64,000 nucleotides of DNA from Actinomycetota bacterium (GTDB lineage: Bacteria > Actinomycetota > Actinomycetes > Actinomycetales > Kineosporiaceae). The position numbers were made by a program, and so were the translations under genes. This document shows positions 45,670-53,496 of the stretch, piece by piece. Each line of letters starts with the position of its first letter. The stretch's first letter is position 1. The notes beneath the pieces were generated by a model. It ran no database searches and had not been told where the DNA came from. It saw only the letters and a program-made list of their open reading frames with translations. The DNA is taken from contig JAUPKQ010000159.1 in the NCBI GenBank assembly GCA_030837345.1, positions 1-64,000 of the forward strand, given 5' to 3'.

Positions 45670-47532
45670 TCAGCTCACGCCGGAGGGGGCAGGCCGGATC
45701 GTACGCGACTCAGATGACGTGTCCGGAGTCACACAGCTGAGGCCGTCGGCGTCACCCGCCGGTCTCCCGGTCGGCGTACCGACCGGGGCACCGCCGGGCG
45801 AGTCGGTCGCGGTGCCGCCGGGCGAGTCGGTCGCCGCACCGCCGCAGGCCTGAGGCCCCTTCCTCTCGCCGGGGGCGAGCCCCCCGCCTTCCTCCGCCCG
45901 CACGACGGTCCGCTTGACGGACGCCGAGGCCAGGCCGAACCCCCCGACCGTCACGTCGTCGTAGGCGACGAGCTGGCCCGCCCGGTCACCGCTGCGGGCG
46001 AAGTAGAGGACCGAGGCGGACAACGGCACCGGATGGTCGGCCGCCGACGGCTGGAGGCTGTCGAATCCCGCGCCTCCGGTCGATCCCTGGACCATCAGCC
46101 GTGTGCCCTCGGACAGCGTCTTCGTCGAACGGTCGTGCAGATGCCCGGACAGCACGAGCGGAACGATCCCGTCCAGGGCCTTCGCCCCCGCAGGCTCGTG
46201 GAAGGCTGCGACGGCTACGGGTTTGGAGGGATTCGCACGGTTCCACTCCTGGATGATCCCGGACAGCCTGCGCCCTTCGACGAGCTCCGGATCCGCCCCG
46301 GGGAGGACGGCCCGCGTCGCGGTCGAGGCGACGGGCGCGGTCGGGGACGGGGACGCCGTCGGGACCTGATCCTTGCGGTCCTGATCCTTGCGGTCCCGCC
46401 CGGAGTCCTCGCCGTCCGGGGTGAAACGGGGGTCCCCGAGCCCGGCGAAGACGAGCCCGGCGACCTCGACCGCCCTCCCGTCGAGGACGACGGCGTTCGG
46501 GTTCCCCGCGACCGCGAGCTGGGTACCCGCCGAGTCGTGGTTGCCCCGGACGAAGACGTAGGGGATCTTCATGTCCCGGATCCGGGCCAGGACGGCGGAC
46601 TCGGCCTCCGTGCCCCACGTGGTGATGTCGCCGGTGTCCACGACGGCGTCCGCGCTGAACTGCTCGACGAGCCGCGCGGCGAGGTCGAACCCCAGAGGGT
46701 TCAGGTGCATGTCCGAGACGTGCAGAACGGTGACGAGGTCCTCGTGCGACGCGCCGGGAAGTACCGGGAGATCATCCCCCGCGCCGTAGAGGGTGGTGAT
46801 GCTCTGCACGATGTCCGCCAGGCCGCTGCGGTAGGACTCCAGGCGCTGCACCAGGCTGGAGGTCTGGTTGGCGACATAGGGGGCCTGGCTGAGCAGTCCT
46901 TCGAACCGGGGCTGGGCGAGCCGGTCGCTGTTGAAGCTCAGCCCGCCGGTCACCCCGGTCACGCCGAGCAGTCCGGCGAGGGCGAGCGCGACCTGGCGGT
47001 TGCGGCGCCGGTCGGTCCGGTAGACGAGCAGGCCGAGAGCCAGCGTGCACGCCACCGCGAAGGCAGCCGAGAGGGCCAGGGCCGTCAGGGCCGCCTTCAG
47101 CAGTTCGTCCGGGGCCTCCTCCTGCAGGGACCGCAGTCCCGCCGGGGAGAGGATCAGGGCCCGGGCCCCTTCGAGGTCGACCTCGCTGATCTCCGCCTCA
47201 AGGGCGAGGGGGGCGAGATGGGTACTGAACCGGACCTCGCCCGCCGGTGGCAGCAGCAGGTGGACGCCGGGGGTGACGCTCGGGACGACCCGTACCTCGA
47301 CCCGCAGGGGCCCGATCTGCGCCGGGACCGCGGGGGCGAGAGCAGTCCCGATCCCCGACCCGGCCAGGACGACGGCCGCCACCCCGAGGGCCCGCAGTGC
47401 CCTTCGTCCGGCCGCCGGCACCCGACGACCTCGGACCGTCCACCGGCCCGTGCGGATGCTCCGGGCGTCGTCCCGGTCATCTGCCAGGTCATCTGCCCGG
47501 GCATCGGCCGGATCGTCAGGGTGAGGAGCCAT
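45670..47532 (-). CDS. Membrane-anchored metallophosphoesterase
   Basis: 620 aa. The N-terminus has one span (ALGVAAVVLAGSGIGTALA), an extracytoplasmic-type domain and a second span (ALTALALSAAFAVACTLALGLLV), possibly a third (QVALALAGLLGVTGVTGG). The calcineurin-like domain then shows the full metal set: HVSDMHL, DTGDI, GNHDS, AAFHEP and LSGHLHD. A disordered charged insert (SGRDRKDQDRKDQ) and a Gly/Pro/Thr-rich tail with a TDSPGG repeat follow. Substrate unknown. Start ATG 47532 precedes the acidic APHPDDPAD. An upstream in-frame start at 47604 exists. Confidence 0.85.
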   Translation of the reverse strand: MAPHPDDPADARADDLADDRDDARSIRTGRWTVRGRRVPAAGRRALRALGVAAVVLAGSGIGTALAPAVPAQIGPLRVEVRVVPSVTPGVHLLLPPAGEVRFSTHLAPLALEAEISEVDLEGARALILSPAGLRSLQEEAPDELLKAALTALALSAAFAVACTLALGLLVYRTDRRRNRQVALALAGLLGVTGVTGGLSFNSDRLAQPRFEGLLSQAPYVANQTSSLVQRLESYRSGLADIVQSITTLYGAGDDLPVLPGASHEDLVTVLHVSDMHLNPLGFDLAARLVEQFSADAVVDTGDITTWGTEAESAVLARIRDMKIPYVFVRGNHDSAGTQLAVAGNPNAVVLDGRAVEVAGLVFAGLGDPRFTPDGEDSGRDRKDQDRKDQVPTASPSPTAPVASTATRAVLPGADPELVEGRRLSGIIQEWNRANPSKPVAVAAFHEPAGAKALDGIVPLVLSGHLHDRSTKTLSEGTRLMVQGSTGGAGFDSLQPSAADHPVPLSASVLYFARSGDRAGQLVAYDDVTVGGFGLASASVKRTVVRAEEGGGLAPGERKGPQACGGAATDSPGGTATDSPGGAPVGTPTGRPAGDADGLSCVTPDTSSESRTIRPAPSGVS

Positions 47533-47613
47533 CAACTCATCTGTCGGCAGGGGAGCGCCACTGTGCAGGAATTGGGTCAGGGCGTCGGACCGGGAGCGCC
47601 TCACGGCGCAACG

Positions 47614-48598: not shown

Positions 48599-50560
48599 CT
48601 AGTGCTGCTGGCACGCCATCGGACACGGCATCGGTCCGGGCATCGGCCCCGGCATCGGCCCCGGCATCGGTCCGGGCCTCGGCCCCGGCATCGGTCCGGG
48701 CACCGGCACGTGGACCCGAGGCGGTTTCACGACGACGGGCAACGGGGGCGGCATCCGGTCCGACGAGAACAGGCAGAGACCCTCCCAGAGGTGCTCCTGC
48801 GATATCCCGTTCCCCCGGGGGATGTTCCAGGCGCCGCAGGGCGCGACGAGCCACCACCGGTAGCTGTCCCCGCAGTGGGCCGTAACCACCAGGTATCCCG
48901 TCATGCTCACGTAGTTGTGGACGGATTCGGGGTGCCGCGACGCCGGACACCACATGCGGCGCTCGAACTCACCCGAGCCGATCGGCACCCCCCGATCCTT
49001 CTGCTCCACAGGTCCGCGCCCGTCGTCCCGGCCGGGGTCGTTCTTCCCAGGATCTTTCGTGCTCGTCCCGTTCTTCCCAGGATCTTTCGTGCTCGTCCTG
49101 TTCTTGCCGGGGTCCTTCGTACTCGTCCCGTTCTTCCCGGGGTCCTTCGTACCCGGTTCCGTTCGGTTCAGGGTCGGGCGAGAGGACGCGCCGGTCTTCC
49201 GGGGAGTACCGGTGGCAGTGGGCGTCGTCGTCCGGTGCGCCCGCGCGCCCGACGAGGACGACGGACGGCGGGAGGCGTCCTCCGGCCCCTGCCCGGACCT
49301 CGCGGGCCCGGCGTCGCCGCCCGCCGGAGCGGTCTGAGGAGCTCCCGTCCAGCCCGGCGACCCTGTCGGTGTCGCCACGGTCGGATCCACCGGCACCGTC
49401 TCGGTCGAACTCGGCAACGGAAGGGCGACGGCGGTCGCCCAGGTGCGCGGTCCTCCGCTCCCGCTCGAGTCCCCGTCCCATCCGCGGCTTCCAGGGATCA
49501 GCAGGGCTCCGAGGATCCCCACGACCGCGAGACCAGCCACGACGGCTGCCGCCCATCCCGGGATGCTCGTCCCTCCGATCCCACCGGCACCACCGGTCCC
49601 GGTCGAACCACCCGTCGCGGTCGAACCACCGGTCCCACCGGTCCCACCCGTCCCACCGGTCCCACCCGTCCCACCCGTCCCGGTCGTGCCCGAACCGTCC
49701 GGAGTGGAGGGCTGGGACGTGACCGTGGACGCAGGGGTGCTCGGCGGGAGCATCGGAACTCCGGCCTGCGCCAGGGCCGCCCTCGCCTGGTCCTTCAGCG
49801 AGGCAGCGGCAACGGCGATCGGCACGGCGGAGAAGAGGAGTTCTGGCTGGGTCTGCTTGAGCATCTCCGCGGCGCAGCTCATGCACTTGCGCCGATGCCG
49901 GGTGATCATCGACGCGGCCTTGGCGTCGAAACCGCTGTCGTCCTTGACGAGCCTGGCCAGGTCGTCGCAGCTCGGGCGGCCTTCGCGCCAGAGCAGGACG
50001 GCGCCGATCGTCTCACGGAGCCGGCTACGAAGCCGGAACAGCATCTGGTAAGCGCTGTTCGGGGTGACGCTGAGTTCCTCTGCGATCTCGGCCGGTTCCA
50101 GACCGTGGCGCAGGTGGAGGTCGAGCAGGCTGGTGTCACGGTCCCCGAGGGCAGCCGCAGCCGTCCAGATCAGTCTCTGGCGGTCGTCCCGTTCGACCTC
50201 GGCGTCGGGCCCGGGCGCGGCATCGGGAATCGCCATCGGTTCCTCGGTATCTAGCGAGTCATGGCGCCGAGTGCGTTCTCGCTCCAGTCGGTTGAGAGCT
50301 CTGTTCCGGGTAGCCCGGAGGATCCACCCCCCAAAGGCCGCCGGATCCCGCAATTGCGCCAATTGCTCCCAAGCAGCGAGGAAAGTGTCCTGGGTGACAT
50401 CGGCAGCGTTCTCGCTGTTGCGGCAGATGTTCAGAGCTACGTCATAACAACGGTCGTACCACCGTTCAAAGAGCTCTCCGTAAGCATTCGGACGCGTTCC
50501 GCGTGCCGCATCCACGAGATCGGCATCGCTCCACCCGACGAAAGCCCCCGACCGATTCAT
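48599..50560 (-). CDS. ECF-type sigma factor fused to zinc motif, membrane span and extracellular domain
   Basis: 653 aa. Sigma region 2 (about 27-93: DVTQDTFLAAWEQL) and region 4 (about 128-185: LEPAEIAEELSVTPNSAYQM) make an ECF sigma factor. A zinc-anti-sigma-like motif follows (C198, then H222-x3-C226-x2-C229). A Gly/Thr repeat (291-331) leads to one membrane span (335-355). The outer part has four copies of a 10-residue TKDPGKN repeat (471-507), a Cys-containing domain (C538, C563, C575, C596) and a PMPGP repeat tail with C646 and C650. Start ATG 50560. Last gene after the Cys-repeat protein and L,D-transpeptidase. Suggests a membrane-tethered sigma factor sensing the envelope. Confidence 0.85.
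   Translation of the reverse strand: MNRSGAFVGWSDADLVDAARGTRPNAYGELFERWYDRCYDVALNICRNSENAADVTQDTFLAAWEQLAQLRDPAAFGGWILRATRNRALNRLERERTRRHDSLDTEEPMAIPDAAPGPDAEVERDDRQRLIWTAAAALGDRDTSLLDLHLRHGLEPAEIAEELSVTPNSAYQMLFRLRSRLRETIGAVLLWREGRPSCDDLARLVKDDSGFDAKAASMITRHRRKCMSCAAEMLKQTQPELLFSAVPIAVAAASLKDQARAALAQAGVPMLPPSTPASTVTSQPSTPDGSGTTGTGGTGGTGGTGGTGGTGGSTATGGSTGTGGAGGIGGTSIPGWAAAVVAGLAVVGILGALLIPGSRGWDGDSSGSGGPRTWATAVALPLPSSTETVPVDPTVATPTGSPGWTGAPQTAPAGGDAGPARSGQGPEDASRRPSSSSGARAHRTTTPTATGTPRKTGASSRPTLNRTEPGTKDPGKNGTSTKDPGKNRTSTKDPGKNGTSTKDPGKNDPGRDDGRGPVEQKDRGVPIGSGEFERRMWCPASRHPESVHNYVSMTGYLVVTAHCGDSYRWWLVAPCGAWNIPRGNGISQEHLWEGLCLFSSDRMPPPLPVVVKPPRVHVPVPGPMPGPRPGPMPGPMPGPMPGPMPCPMACQQH
48623..48709 (-). 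repeat. PMPGP-coding repeat
   Basis: Repeats of GGCATCGGTCCGGG type encode PGPMPGP units at the C-terminus of the sigma-fusion protein. Units are in multiples of three bases. Confidence 0.8.
49040..49150 (-). repeat. 30-bp tandem repeat in the sigma-fusion gene
   Basis: Nearly four copies of a 30-bp unit encode TKDPGKNGTS-type decapeptides in the predicted extracellular stalk. Small base changes between copies (AGGATCTTTCGT versus GGGGTCCTTCGT) show two sub-types, meaning block duplication. Confidence 0.85.
49568..49690 (-). repeat. Gly-Thr-coding repeat before the membrane span
   Basis: CCCACCGGT/CCCACCCGT-type 9-bp units encode GGT tripeptides between the zinc motif and the membrane segment of the sigma-fusion protein, a flexible cytoplasmic linker. 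Confidence 0.75.
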
Positions 50561-50597
50561 GGCCCCGATCCTCACACCTTCGATTGATCGTTTGTAC

Positions 50598-51443
50598 TCA
50601 GGCGACTATGTCGATCGGAGTACCCAGCGGAACGTCCTCGAGTTTACGAACGACCGAGTTCGGCACCCGGACGCAGCCATGCGTCGTAGCGGTCCCGATA
50701 CTCGCAGGTTCGTTCGTGCCGTGAATCCCTATCTGGGCATCCCCGTCACCGAACTTCGTCAGGGACGCCGAGTGCGCGGAGATCCCCAGGGCGAAGGCGC
50801 CGTAGGCCCCCTTCGGATCAGTGGTCCGCACGCGGTCGGTGACGAAGAAGGTCCCCACCGGCGTGGGCGTCCGTGCCGCACCCGTCGCGACCTTCGTCGA
50901 GACCACCTGACTCCCTCCGGCCCTCAGCACCAGGGTCCGGTCGGAGATGTCGATGACGATCCGCTCGGTGATCTGCTGCACCACGACGTCCGAACGACGG
51001 ACCCAGCCCGTGGCTCCGTTCGGCCGTACCGGCAGGAGCACCTCGATCCATTCACCGGCATCGCGCTTGGCGAGCAGGACCCTGGCGCTGCCCATCGGGG
51101 TGGTGGCGGTCAGCGTAGCCACCGGTTTCGCGTCCTTCTTGGCCGCCTTCCGAACGATCAGCGAACCACGCCGGGCGCGGACGACATTCGCCGGGCCGGA
51201 TGCCGGGGAATCGGACGTCTCTGGGGACGCCGCGCCGGACGTCGCGCCGGACGTCGCCGACGCGGGGTCGGACATCGGGTCCAAGGTGGGACTCGACTCG
51301 CTCGCACCGGCGTCGACGACCGATCCGGACATCGTGGCGCCCACGGACGACGCCCGGGACACCTCGGTCTCGGCCGAGCCACACGCCGTCAGCATCAGAC
51401 TCGCGACGACCACGGGCCCGATCCTCCTCAACAGACACCTCAC
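50598..51443 (-). CDS. L,D-transpeptidase lipoprotein
   Basis: 281 aa. Signal with lipobox LTAC (C21), a Ser/Ala/Asp-rich linker, an SH3-like domain (about 87-155) and a C-terminal YkuD catalytic domain. The last has IGIHGTN and HGCVRVP with nucleophile C257. L,D-transpeptidases form 3-3 peptidoglycan cross-links or attach proteins to the wall. Start GTG 51443 is fixed by AAGGAGG nine bases upstream. It lies 37 bp before the sigma-fusion gene and 76 bp after the Cys-repeat gene on the same strand, so one transcript is likely. Confidence 0.9.
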   Translation of the reverse strand: MRCLLRRIGPVVVASLMLTACGSAETEVSRASSVGATMSGSVVDAGASESSPTLDPMSDPASATSGATSGAASPETSDSPASGPANVVRARRGSLIVRKAAKKDAKPVATLTATTPMGSARVLLAKRDAGEWIEVLLPVRPNGATGWVRRSDVVVQQITERIVIDISDRTLVLRAGGSQVVSTKVATGAARTPTPVGTFFVTDRVRTTDPKGAYGAFALGISAHSASLTKFGDGDAQIGIHGTNEPASIGTATTHGCVRVPNSVVRKLEDVPLGTPIDIVA

Positions 51444-51519
51444 CGGTCCTGGCCTCCTTCTTCTCTCATCGTGACTTGATCGAACGATCCATGGGGACGA
51501 CACGAGCAGCGGCGGCACC

Positions 51520-52230
51520 TCAGCCGGTGAAGTTCGGAGGAGCGATGACGATCTCGCATCCGCCCGGGCCGGAAGGCTTACCGGTCTCGCAGCGGGGGGT
51601 CTTGCTGGTGCTCGGCGGGCGCGTGATGGTGACTGTGGGCGGAACAACGGTCACCACGGGAGGGGTCACGACAACGACCGGGGGAATGGTCACGCTCGGC
51701 GGCTCGACGGTCACGGTCGGCGGCGTCACGACGATCGGCGGCACCTTCACCCTCGGCGGGTTCTTGCCACACCGGCCCGAACCACAGTCCGACGGCGGCA
51801 TGACGACAATCGGCGGCACGTTCACCTTCGGCGGCGTGTGCCCGCACCGGCCCGAACCACAATCGACCGGCGGGACGACAATCTTCGGCGGCGTGTACCC
51901 GCACCGGCCCGAACCACAGTTCTGCGGCGGAGTCTGACCGCACCGGCCCGAACCACAGTTCATCGGCGGGACGACGATCTTCGGCGGCATCTGACCGCAC
52001 CGGCCCGAACCGCACTGGGGCGGCACGTTCACCTTCGGCGGCGCCTGGCCGCACCGGCCCTGACCGCAGTTCTGCGGCGGGCGCGGAGCCGGGTAGTCAC
52101 ACGCCAAGGCCGACACCGCGGGGCCGAAAGTCATCGCCGCGGTGGCCACGGCGACGCCGAAGAGGCGAAAGCGCAGACGCTTACCTCTCGCCAGGACGAT
52201 ACGGCTGATGACGCCTCGCATGGAGTCCAT
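51520..52230 (-). CDS. Secreted Cys-rich repeat protein (CGxGRCG repeats)
   Basis: 236 aa, not recognised. A signal peptide ends near ALA-C44. Six copies of CG[SQ]GRCG follow (C55/C60, C73/C78, C92/C97, C105/C110, C124/C129, C149/C154), each followed by a PPK[VI]-type linker. Then comes a stretch of PPxVTV units (about 160-205) and a last cysteine pair (C214, C225). With 15 cysteines after export, a disulfide-linked or metal-binding fibre or wall protein is plausible. Start ATG 52230 follows GAGAGGA. GGGAACCC about 80 bases upstream could be an ECF-type -35 element, weak evidence. First gene of the three-gene set. Confidence 0.8.
   Translation of the reverse strand: MDSMRGVISRIVLARGKRLRFRLFGVAVATAAMTFGPAVSALACDYPAPRPPQNCGQGRCGQAPPKVNVPPQCGSGRCGQMPPKIVVPPMNCGSGRCGQTPPQNCGSGRCGYTPPKIVVPPVDCGSGRCGHTPPKVNVPPIVVMPPSDCGSGRCGKNPPRVKVPPIVVTPPTVTVEPPSVTIPPVVVVTPPVVTVVPPTVTITRPPSTSKTPRCETGKPSGPGGCEIVIAPPNFTG
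51765..52078 (-). repeat. Cys-repeat coding tandem array
   Basis: Six degenerate units sharing CACCGGCCCGAACCACA-type cores (plus strand) encode the CGxGRCG motifs. Spacing between units varies (about 39 to 75 bp), so the array grew by unequal duplication followed by linker divergence. Confidence 0.8.
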
Positions 52231-52427
52231 CGGAAGTCCTCTCGGTCGGCGCGCGGCTCCTGTTGCTGCGCGCTCGACCGTCCTGACCGGTAGCCCCCCA
52301 CGTCTCTTACGGGTTCCCGGAAAAAAACTTTGAGAACTTCGGAAAGTCGACGCAATGTAATCGCCAAATGGCATTGAGTGACCAATGTGGGGGTTGCCCT
52401 CCAGTCCGAGGGCAGTGCTCCGCAAAA

Positions 52428-52477: not shown

Positions 52478-53293
52478 TCAGGCGTTGACGGAGTGCTTCG
52501 TGACGGACTTCGCGGTGAGGGGCTTCGCGATCGACGGTTTGCGGGCGCCGGAGGTCCGGACGACCGGCTTGCGCGTCATGGCCTTCCCGTTCGATCTCCC
52601 GTTCATCGTCCCGTCCAGCTTCCCCTTGGCGGTCGGGTTCAACGAGGTGACCGTCGCGGGCCTGCTCATGCCAGGCTTCGAGGTGTTCTTGGCCGCAGCT
52701 GGCTTCGGTGCCGGCTTGGCGGCCGGACGGGAAACAGTCACCGCCGGAACGGGCTTGCGCGCGACCGGCTTGCGGACCACGGGCTTGCGCGCCACGGGCT
52801 TGGCGGCAGGCTTGCGGACGGCGGATTTGGCCGCGGGTTTACGGACGGCCGGTTTGACGCCGCGCTTGGCCTCCGCGGCGGTGACGGTGCGCTGCGCCGG
52901 GACGCGACGCGCCGGCGTCGGAGCAGAAGCCTTACGAACGGCCGGCTTCGCCGTGGACGTCCGCTTCGCCGCGGGCTTCGCGGCGGCGGGCTTCGCCACA
53001 GCGGACCGGCGGGCGACGGGCTTCGCGGCGGCGGGCTTCACCACGGGCGCACGCTTCGCGGCGGGCTTCGCAGCGGCGGGCTTCGCGGCGGGCCGACGGG
53101 CGGCGGGCCTGGTGACGGTGGTGTCGTCGAGCGCCGCCACAACGGCGTTCTTCCGAACGGACGCCAGCCCGTTCAGCGCCGACGCCTTGGTCGCGTACGT
53201 CGCCGAGGTGGCGACCTCCTGACCGTTGGCGGCAAGGAGCGAGAACCGGAACTTCCCGGTCTTGTCCTTGAAGAGGGTGAACTTCGCGGGCAC
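52478..53293 (-). CDS. DUF1508 protein with histone-H1-like tail
   Basis: 271 aa. The first about 57 residues form a single YegP/DUF1508 repeat (FTLFKDKTGKFRFSLLAANG; then KASALNGLASVRKNA). The rest is a Lys/Arg/Ala/Pro-rich tail of KPAAAKPA and RKPVARKP units, as in histone H1-like proteins and HupS-type tails, expected to be disordered and DNA- or RNA-binding. Start GTG 53293 has AGGAGG five bases upstream. Followed by a strong terminator, so it is a single-gene unit. A nucleoid-associated role is inferred, not shown. Confidence 0.82.
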   Translation of the reverse strand: MPAKFTLFKDKTGKFRFSLLAANGQEVATSATYATKASALNGLASVRKNAVVAALDDTTVTRPAARRPAAKPAAAKPAAKRAPVVKPAAAKPVARRSAVAKPAAAKPAAKRTSTAKPAVRKASAPTPARRVPAQRTVTAAEAKRGVKPAVRKPAAKSAVRKPAAKPVARKPVVRKPVARKPVPAVTVSRPAAKPAPKPAAAKNTSKPGMSRPATVTSLNPTAKGKLDGTMNGRSNGKAMTRKPVVRTSGARKPSIAKPLTAKSVTKHSVNA

Positions 53294-53496
53294 TAGGGCC
53301 TCCTGGTGAGGGGCGGTCGACCGACCACCACTGGGATCAGCTACGCCCCACAGATCGTCACCCTCCGCTCGGACCTGTAGCCGTTCGGAGCAACTTCCTC
53401 GTCTCCGCGGAGCAATCCGCAGCCCCACTCTTGACACCGCCGTCGGCCAGCAGCTGGTCGGCGGGCCCGGGACCGAGGTCTCCGCCGCCCCCCAGA

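Follow-up and report, generated by a model that had tools for sequence, protein, structure and literature searches.

A conserved C-terminal tag paired with a YkuD L,D-transpeptidase subfamily in actinobacteria, and a candidate wall-sorting cassette with a fused sigma factor

L,D-transpeptidases (LDTs) are a class of enzymes studied as antibiotic targets. Characterised LDTs that attach proteins to the cell wall, all from Gram-negatives, use the stem tetrapeptide as donor and link the protein through an amine, either of a Lys side chain or of the N-terminus (PMC12274547, PMC12729407). In a different context, the membrane sigma factors of groups ECF52 and ECF53, such as SCO4117 of Streptomyces coelicolor, combine an ECF domain, a fused zinc-ligand motif, a membrane span and a long Pro-rich outer region, and are proposed to be released by proteolysis (PMC5826349, PMC8999054). 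The window analysed here, a 64,000-nt stretch of DNA from an actinobacterium of the Kineosporiaceae, encodes a sigma fusion that resembles this domain architecture and, like both groups, is actinobacterial (PMC5826349, PMC8999054). No carbohydrate-binding domain, a feature of ECF52, was found in the window fusion, and it is linked to an LDT and a secreted protein with a C-terminal tag.

A three-gene cassette and its relatives

The cassette consists of three minus-strand genes encoding, 5′ to 3′, a secreted Cys-repeat protein, a YkuD LDT lipoprotein and the ECF sigma fusion, with intergenic gaps of 76 bp (tagged protein/LDT) and 37 bp (LDT/sigma fusion), as the initial annotation had described (Table 1).

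Table 1. Position and character of the cassette features in the window.
Feature	Position	Strand	Description
Tagged secreted protein, 236 aa	51520..52230	(-)	signal peptide, six CG[SQ]GRCG repeats, P/V/T-rich stretch, C-terminal tag
C-terminal tag P-P-N-F-T-G	51523..51540	(-)	immediately before the stop codon; same tag class as found beside the LDT subfamily
Leader 5′ of the tagged-protein gene	52236..52319	(-)	resembles the L007 cassette leader (local alignment)
L,D-transpeptidase lipoprotein, 281 aa, GTG start	50598..51443	(-)	lipobox LTAC, disordered linker, SH3-like domain, YkuD domain
LDT catalytic stretch H241-G-T ... H255-G-C257	50673..50723	(-)	subfamily alignment
ECF sigma fusion, 653 aa	48599..50560	(-)	sigma domains, ZAS-like motif, membrane span, outer region
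Zinc-ligand-like residues C198...H222-x3-C226-x2-C229	49874..49969	(-)	alignment of relatives
Single membrane span	49484..49552	(-)	Kyte-Doolittle peak 2.66
Outer region, 294 aa	48602..49483	(-)	Pro/Ser/Thr- and KDPGKN-rich linker, Cys/Trp-containing patch, PMPGP repeats

The sigma fusion matched TIGR02937 (sigma70-ECF, NCBIfam, E = 1.3e-24) and PF04542 (Sigma70_r2, Pfam, E = 1.9e-12), and PF08281 (Sigma70_r4_2) at E = 2.1e-4, which is below the Pfam cut-off. Residues C198, H222, C226 and C229 were identical in all four relatives, as would be expected for a zinc-type anti-sigma motif, although Pfam zf-HC2 gave no match. The membrane span occupies residues about 337–359, and the outer region beyond it, which is poorly conserved among the relatives, matched no Pfam domain, carbohydrate-binding domains included. 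The reading of this protein in the initial annotation, namely an ECF sigma factor continuing through a Cys-His motif and one membrane span into an outer region with Cys and PMPGP repeats, was borne out as an observation, and the outer region matched no common domain unrelated to the envelope.

The same three-gene order was found at three other loci (L006/L009, L007/L017 and L018) in two related genomes of the family, where the sigma relatives shared 64–65% identity over residues 1–273; this recurrence argues that the cassette is not a chance arrangement. With the window, the count came to four loci in three genomes of the family, which refuted the possibility, raised earlier, that the three genes never co-occur. 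The leaders of the window and L007 cassettes were alike (local alignment score 54, compared with 34 for the best of 500 shuffles) although their downstream proteins differ, and the shared stretch may be a promoter or leader element of the cassette; a simple ECF promoter scan 5′ of the cassettes found no common motif. Near the cassette, the upstream gene (52478-53437, minus strand) encodes a fusion of a DUF1508 (YegP-like) domain with a long, histone-like Lys/Ala/Pro tail, and the gene at 45670-47604 (minus strand) encodes an N-terminal hydrophobic region followed by a calcineurin-like phosphoesterase domain (PF00149, E = 2.6e-11).

The assignment of the second gene to an LDT lipoprotein also stood. 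Its product matched PF03734 (YkuD) over the cut-off at E = 9.1e-18 and SH3_3 below the cut-off, carries the lipobox LTAC21, and has H241 and C257, the catalytic residues, invariant in 10 aligned subfamily members. Its predicted structure placed an SH3-like domain at about 85–153 and the YkuD domain at about 160–280, with B. subtilis YkuD (1y7m) as the nearest solved fold. Domain, catalytic residues and modelled fold together predict a YkuD L,D-transpeptidase.

The secreted protein of the window matched no Pfam family. Its cassette counterparts vary in length, composition and Cys count (15, 8, 4 and 7 for the four proteins, that of L006 being cut by a contig end), and resemble one another at the C-terminus, where a Cys at −12 is followed by P-[NS]-F-T-G and the stop codon, and otherwise through weak Cys-rich matches. 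The proposal that a Cys-repeat wall structure is the conserved element did not hold: the L007 counterpart has 4 Cys and none of the repeats. Judged by this comparison, the constant parts of the cassette are the C-terminal P-[NS]-F-T-G, which the initial annotation had not mentioned (P-N-F-T-G in the window's protein), and the LDT. That the Cys-repeat protein is a metal-binding modified peptide of the HvfA/bufferin type is very improbable; it matched NCBIfam NF050188 at E = 1.5e-7, yet with 31.9 bits against a cut-off of 95, and the L007 counterpart lacks the repeats. An HvfA/bufferin RiPP was rejected on this sub-threshold score and on finding no MNIO/DUF692 enzyme (PF05114) in the genome.

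The tag and its partner transpeptidase

In a prospective test of the pairing, PxFTG was defined on five loci, and a profile of their five LDTs was then searched across 13 genomes of the family. The search returned twelve LDTs in nine genomes, seven of them new, and a PxFTG-terminated secreted protein lay directly upstream of the LDT at 12 of 12 loci, including 7 of 7 newly found ones. Stop-terminated PxFTG matches in the 13 genomes numbered 15 in total, 12 of which were at these LDTs, and no credible tagged protein was found in the four family genomes without this LDT. The window's own genome holds a second pair (L023, G000:C55 2781-4881), in which a secreted protein of 396 aa with PPWDTR repeats ends in NPTFTG and is followed by the LDT gene; its 6.1-kb contig contains no sigma gene, and nearby on the opposite strand lies a gene for a pectate lyase (PF03211, E = 9e-80).

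The fused sigma factor was present at 4 of the 12 family loci and absent from the other 8, and next to distant fused sigma factors (35–41% identity, in four other family genomes) the stretches read contained neither an LDT nor a tagged protein. In the best reading, the fused sigma factor adds regulation locally and is optional to the tag–LDT pair. An association with ECF sigma factors recurs, since a separate ECF sigma gene adjoins the pair upstream at L074 (3081-4710) and L075 (5306-6944), the two loci of another family genus that were read far enough; the sigma domains were confirmed for L074, where a gene without a Pfam family lies between the sigma gene and the pair.

Beyond the family, LDTs matching the subfamily profile were found in 51 of 396 genomes of the order (E ≤ 1e-35) and in 49 of 297 genomes of the class (E ≤ 1e-30), and at these loci the tagged neighbours end in PxFTG, PxYTG, AxYTG, PxYTR or xxYAG. 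When family, order and class were pooled and ORFs of 60 or more codons considered, an ORF ending [PAVI]-x-[FY]-[TA]-[GR] was present at 63 of the 67 subfamily loci read, by a definition widened ([TA], [GR]) after the data had been inspected, a widening on which neither the family test nor the control with TGG in place of the stop depends. The loci without a tagged ORF were L126 and L128, from one family, and L114 and L118, which are contig ends or cut loci. A genome-wide search of 55 genomes with the stricter pattern P-x-[FY]-T-G gave 52 stop-terminated matches, 29 of them within 5 kb of this LDT. The controls set these numbers apart, though with P values that overstate independence because the loci are related: other YkuD LDTs had a tagged ORF at 0 of 14 loci (382 ORFs; Fisher P = 1.7e-12), and none of 45 matches with TGG instead of the stop was near the LDT (P = 9e-11). 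Chance as the source of the tag was rejected on these two controls, and we hold with high confidence that the tag–LDT pairing is real. Among the distant stop-terminated matches, L088, L096, L098, L099 and L159 were discarded as spurious short frames, and an LDT on a Miltoncostaea replicon (Thermoleophilia) had no tagged neighbour.

The tagged gene may lie upstream or downstream of the LDT gene, or be divergent or convergent to it. A pairing kept in four arrangements is not one inherited operon, and function better explains the association, which, as read from gene order, has been preserved through several rearrangements. In most genomes the LDT is accompanied by a single tagged protein. One family has clusters of 2–4 tagged proteins with 1–2 LDTs, together with more tagged exported proteins tens of kb or more away; as a supporting point, many tagged proteins per LDT would be the many-to-one pattern of a sorting enzyme. 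Examples are L093, L095 and L079, where three to four tagged secreted proteins surround two LDTs and one carries a CHRTKSxSNPY motif, and the remote tagged proteins of L080-L085. The literature searched contained no paper with the tag string, and none of the matches listed dealt with LDT anchoring in actinobacteria, which suggests that the pairing is undescribed.

Alignment of 74 tails gave the consensus A(−12)-x-[PA]-V(−9)-x-[AG]-x-P(−5)-[TSN]-[FY]-T-G with a free carboxyl end; its final three positions had themselves been used to select the tails. Positions outside the first search were conserved as well (V at −9 in 60, P at −5 in 57 and A at −12 in 48 of the 74), and Pro, Ala, Thr, Gly and Val abound in the stretch before the tag. 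The tails end in T-G (69) or T-R (5). Ends in T-R came from one family (L103, L104, L107, L111, L116 and L121; for example AEPYYTR and ADPHYTR), and ends in [FY]-A-G were seen at L055, L056, L058, L059 and L062; the final residues of the tag thus differ between lineages.

A signal-peptide-like start was present in 63 of the 74 tagged proteins, and in the others the frame is truncated at the edge of the locus. No membrane helix follows the tag in the tagged proteins: such hydrophobic segments as lie close to the C-terminus are either V-rich stretches of borderline hydrophobicity or, in short proteins, the signal peptide itself. A sortase-type signal was rejected because the tag comprises the last residues and no membrane helix follows the motif. 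The tagged proteins are otherwise diverse, most match no family, and they have no domain in common apart from the tag. In an NCBIfam scan of 20 of them, three matched, all to a choice-of-anchor Q domain whose end lies about 35 residues short of the C-terminus; the name choice-of-anchor is given to models of domains that stand ahead of one or another surface-anchoring signal.

Candidate mechanism and alternatives

The reading that we prefer, and to which we give about an even chance of being right, is that the tag acts as a signal for sorting to the cell wall and that the partner LDT is the enzyme that serves it, with the fused sigma factor as regulator of the window cassette. The secreted protein and its dedicated LDT would form a matched pair, in which the protein is exported through its signal peptide with the short tag at its end, and the membrane-tethered LDT would recognise the tag and fasten the protein covalently to peptidoglycan. 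The LDT would thereby do for tagged proteins what sortases do for those with LPXTG, except that the enzyme is of the YkuD type and its substrates lack a membrane helix at the C-terminus. In the window, the fused sigma factor would be freed by envelope stress, probably through proteolysis, and raise expression of the cassette. We place moderate confidence in wall anchoring of the tagged proteins and low confidence in any exact attachment chemistry.

None of the 74 tails has a C-terminal or near-terminal Lys acceptor of the Lpp-box kind. A tail ending in Gly (or Arg) offers no such amine, and the terminal Gly, which has no side-chain amine, cannot be an acceptor in the way that Lys is in Braun's lipoprotein, so that either the polarity is reversed, with Thr-Gly as donor, or the tag docks; a donor or docking role thus appears more likely than an acceptor role. 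By the donor route, the LDT Cys would attack the Thr carbonyl, Gly would leave as D-Ala does from the stem peptide, and Thr would finally be joined to a diaminopimelate amine; the Thr-Gly bond is proposed, by analogy, to resemble the bond from an L-centre to D-Ala. A simple imitation of D-Ala is hard to square with the five T-R tails, as Arg does not mimic D-Ala, and the LDT-attached proteins in the review literature are all amine acceptors from Gram-negatives, among which a donor tag has no precedent (PMC12729407, PMC12274547). That the YkuD enzyme works as a sortase in this full sense, expelling Gly and joining the new C-terminus to a peptidoglycan amine, is a tentative and somewhat doubtful proposal; if true, a distinct route of wall anchoring, one whose sorting signal has no membrane helix, would exist across the class. 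Alternatively, the tag would be a docking signal, and any attachment would occur elsewhere, for instance at the mature N-terminus.

The tag might also be a non-covalent docking peptide by which the tagged protein, as a regulator, activator or scaffold, binds the SH3-like domain or active-site groove of the LDT and directs the sites of 3-3 cross-links without itself being attached to the wall. The frequent occurrence of a single, immediately adjacent tagged protein per LDT, the SH3-like domain itself, and a free C-terminus resembling a product or pseudosubstrate would fit such a role. The lack of any common domain besides the tag would be odd for regulators, however, and loci with three to four tagged proteins, tagged proteins far from an LDT and the choice-of-anchor domains before the tag in three proteins also speak against docking, which we consider rather unlikely. 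It is less probable still that the tag is read by another factor, such as some other wall enzyme or an export/quality-control protein, with the LDT merely co-regulated: the LDT was singled out as the tag's enzyme from genome context alone, but this subfamily is the sole partner at nearly every locus, the tag is absent beside other YkuD LDTs, and family genomes that lack this LDT also lack a credible tagged protein.

The initial annotation inferred a self-contained envelope system that produces a wall structure together with its sensor-regulator. On this model the Cys-repeat protein would be the wall structure, the fused sigma factor would sense its state and the LDT would reinforce the wall. 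Its basis in a conserved three-gene unit held at four loci. The tags of all four fused-sigma cassettes have Cys at −12, a position mostly occupied by Ala in other tails, and Cys is also present in each of the four sigma outer regions, so that thiol-based sensing may be possible. The Cys repeats are not conserved, however, the fused sigma factor is missing at most family loci of the pair, and the tag and its spread without sigma are left unexplained, and we consider this model improbable as a whole. Were the preferred reading, a sorting signal served by the LDT, to prove correct, many actinobacteria would have their own route for anchoring surface proteins beside sortases, with a recognisable tag; wall proteins could then be picked out among those that match no known family, and a role beyond cross-linking would be added for one LDT subfamily.

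Comparison with known anchoring and sorting systems

Three described systems come closest to the tag–LDT pair. Braun's lipoprotein and OutB share with it a YkuD LDT, an exported protein and a short box at the very C-terminus (PMC12274547), and an aromatic residue close to the end is common in Lpp boxes too (PMC12274547). They differ in having a C-terminal Lys as amine acceptor and in belonging to diderms, whereas the tag described here ends in Gly (or Arg) and occurs in monoderm actinobacteria (PMC12274547). Sortases, class E sortases among them, and their LPXTG or LAXTG signals resemble the pair in a C-terminal signal containing Thr-Gly, in exported P/T/S-rich proteins and in a dedicated Cys transpeptidase (PMC5148588); in contrast, the tag here has neither membrane helix nor basic tail after the motif, and its partner is a YkuD enzyme (PMC5148588). 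The GlyGly-CTERM/rhombosortase system is alike in that a C-terminal tag and a partner enzyme were recognised by genome context, and unlike in the tag, in the enzyme and in the absence of a membrane helix from the tag described here (PMC3237569).
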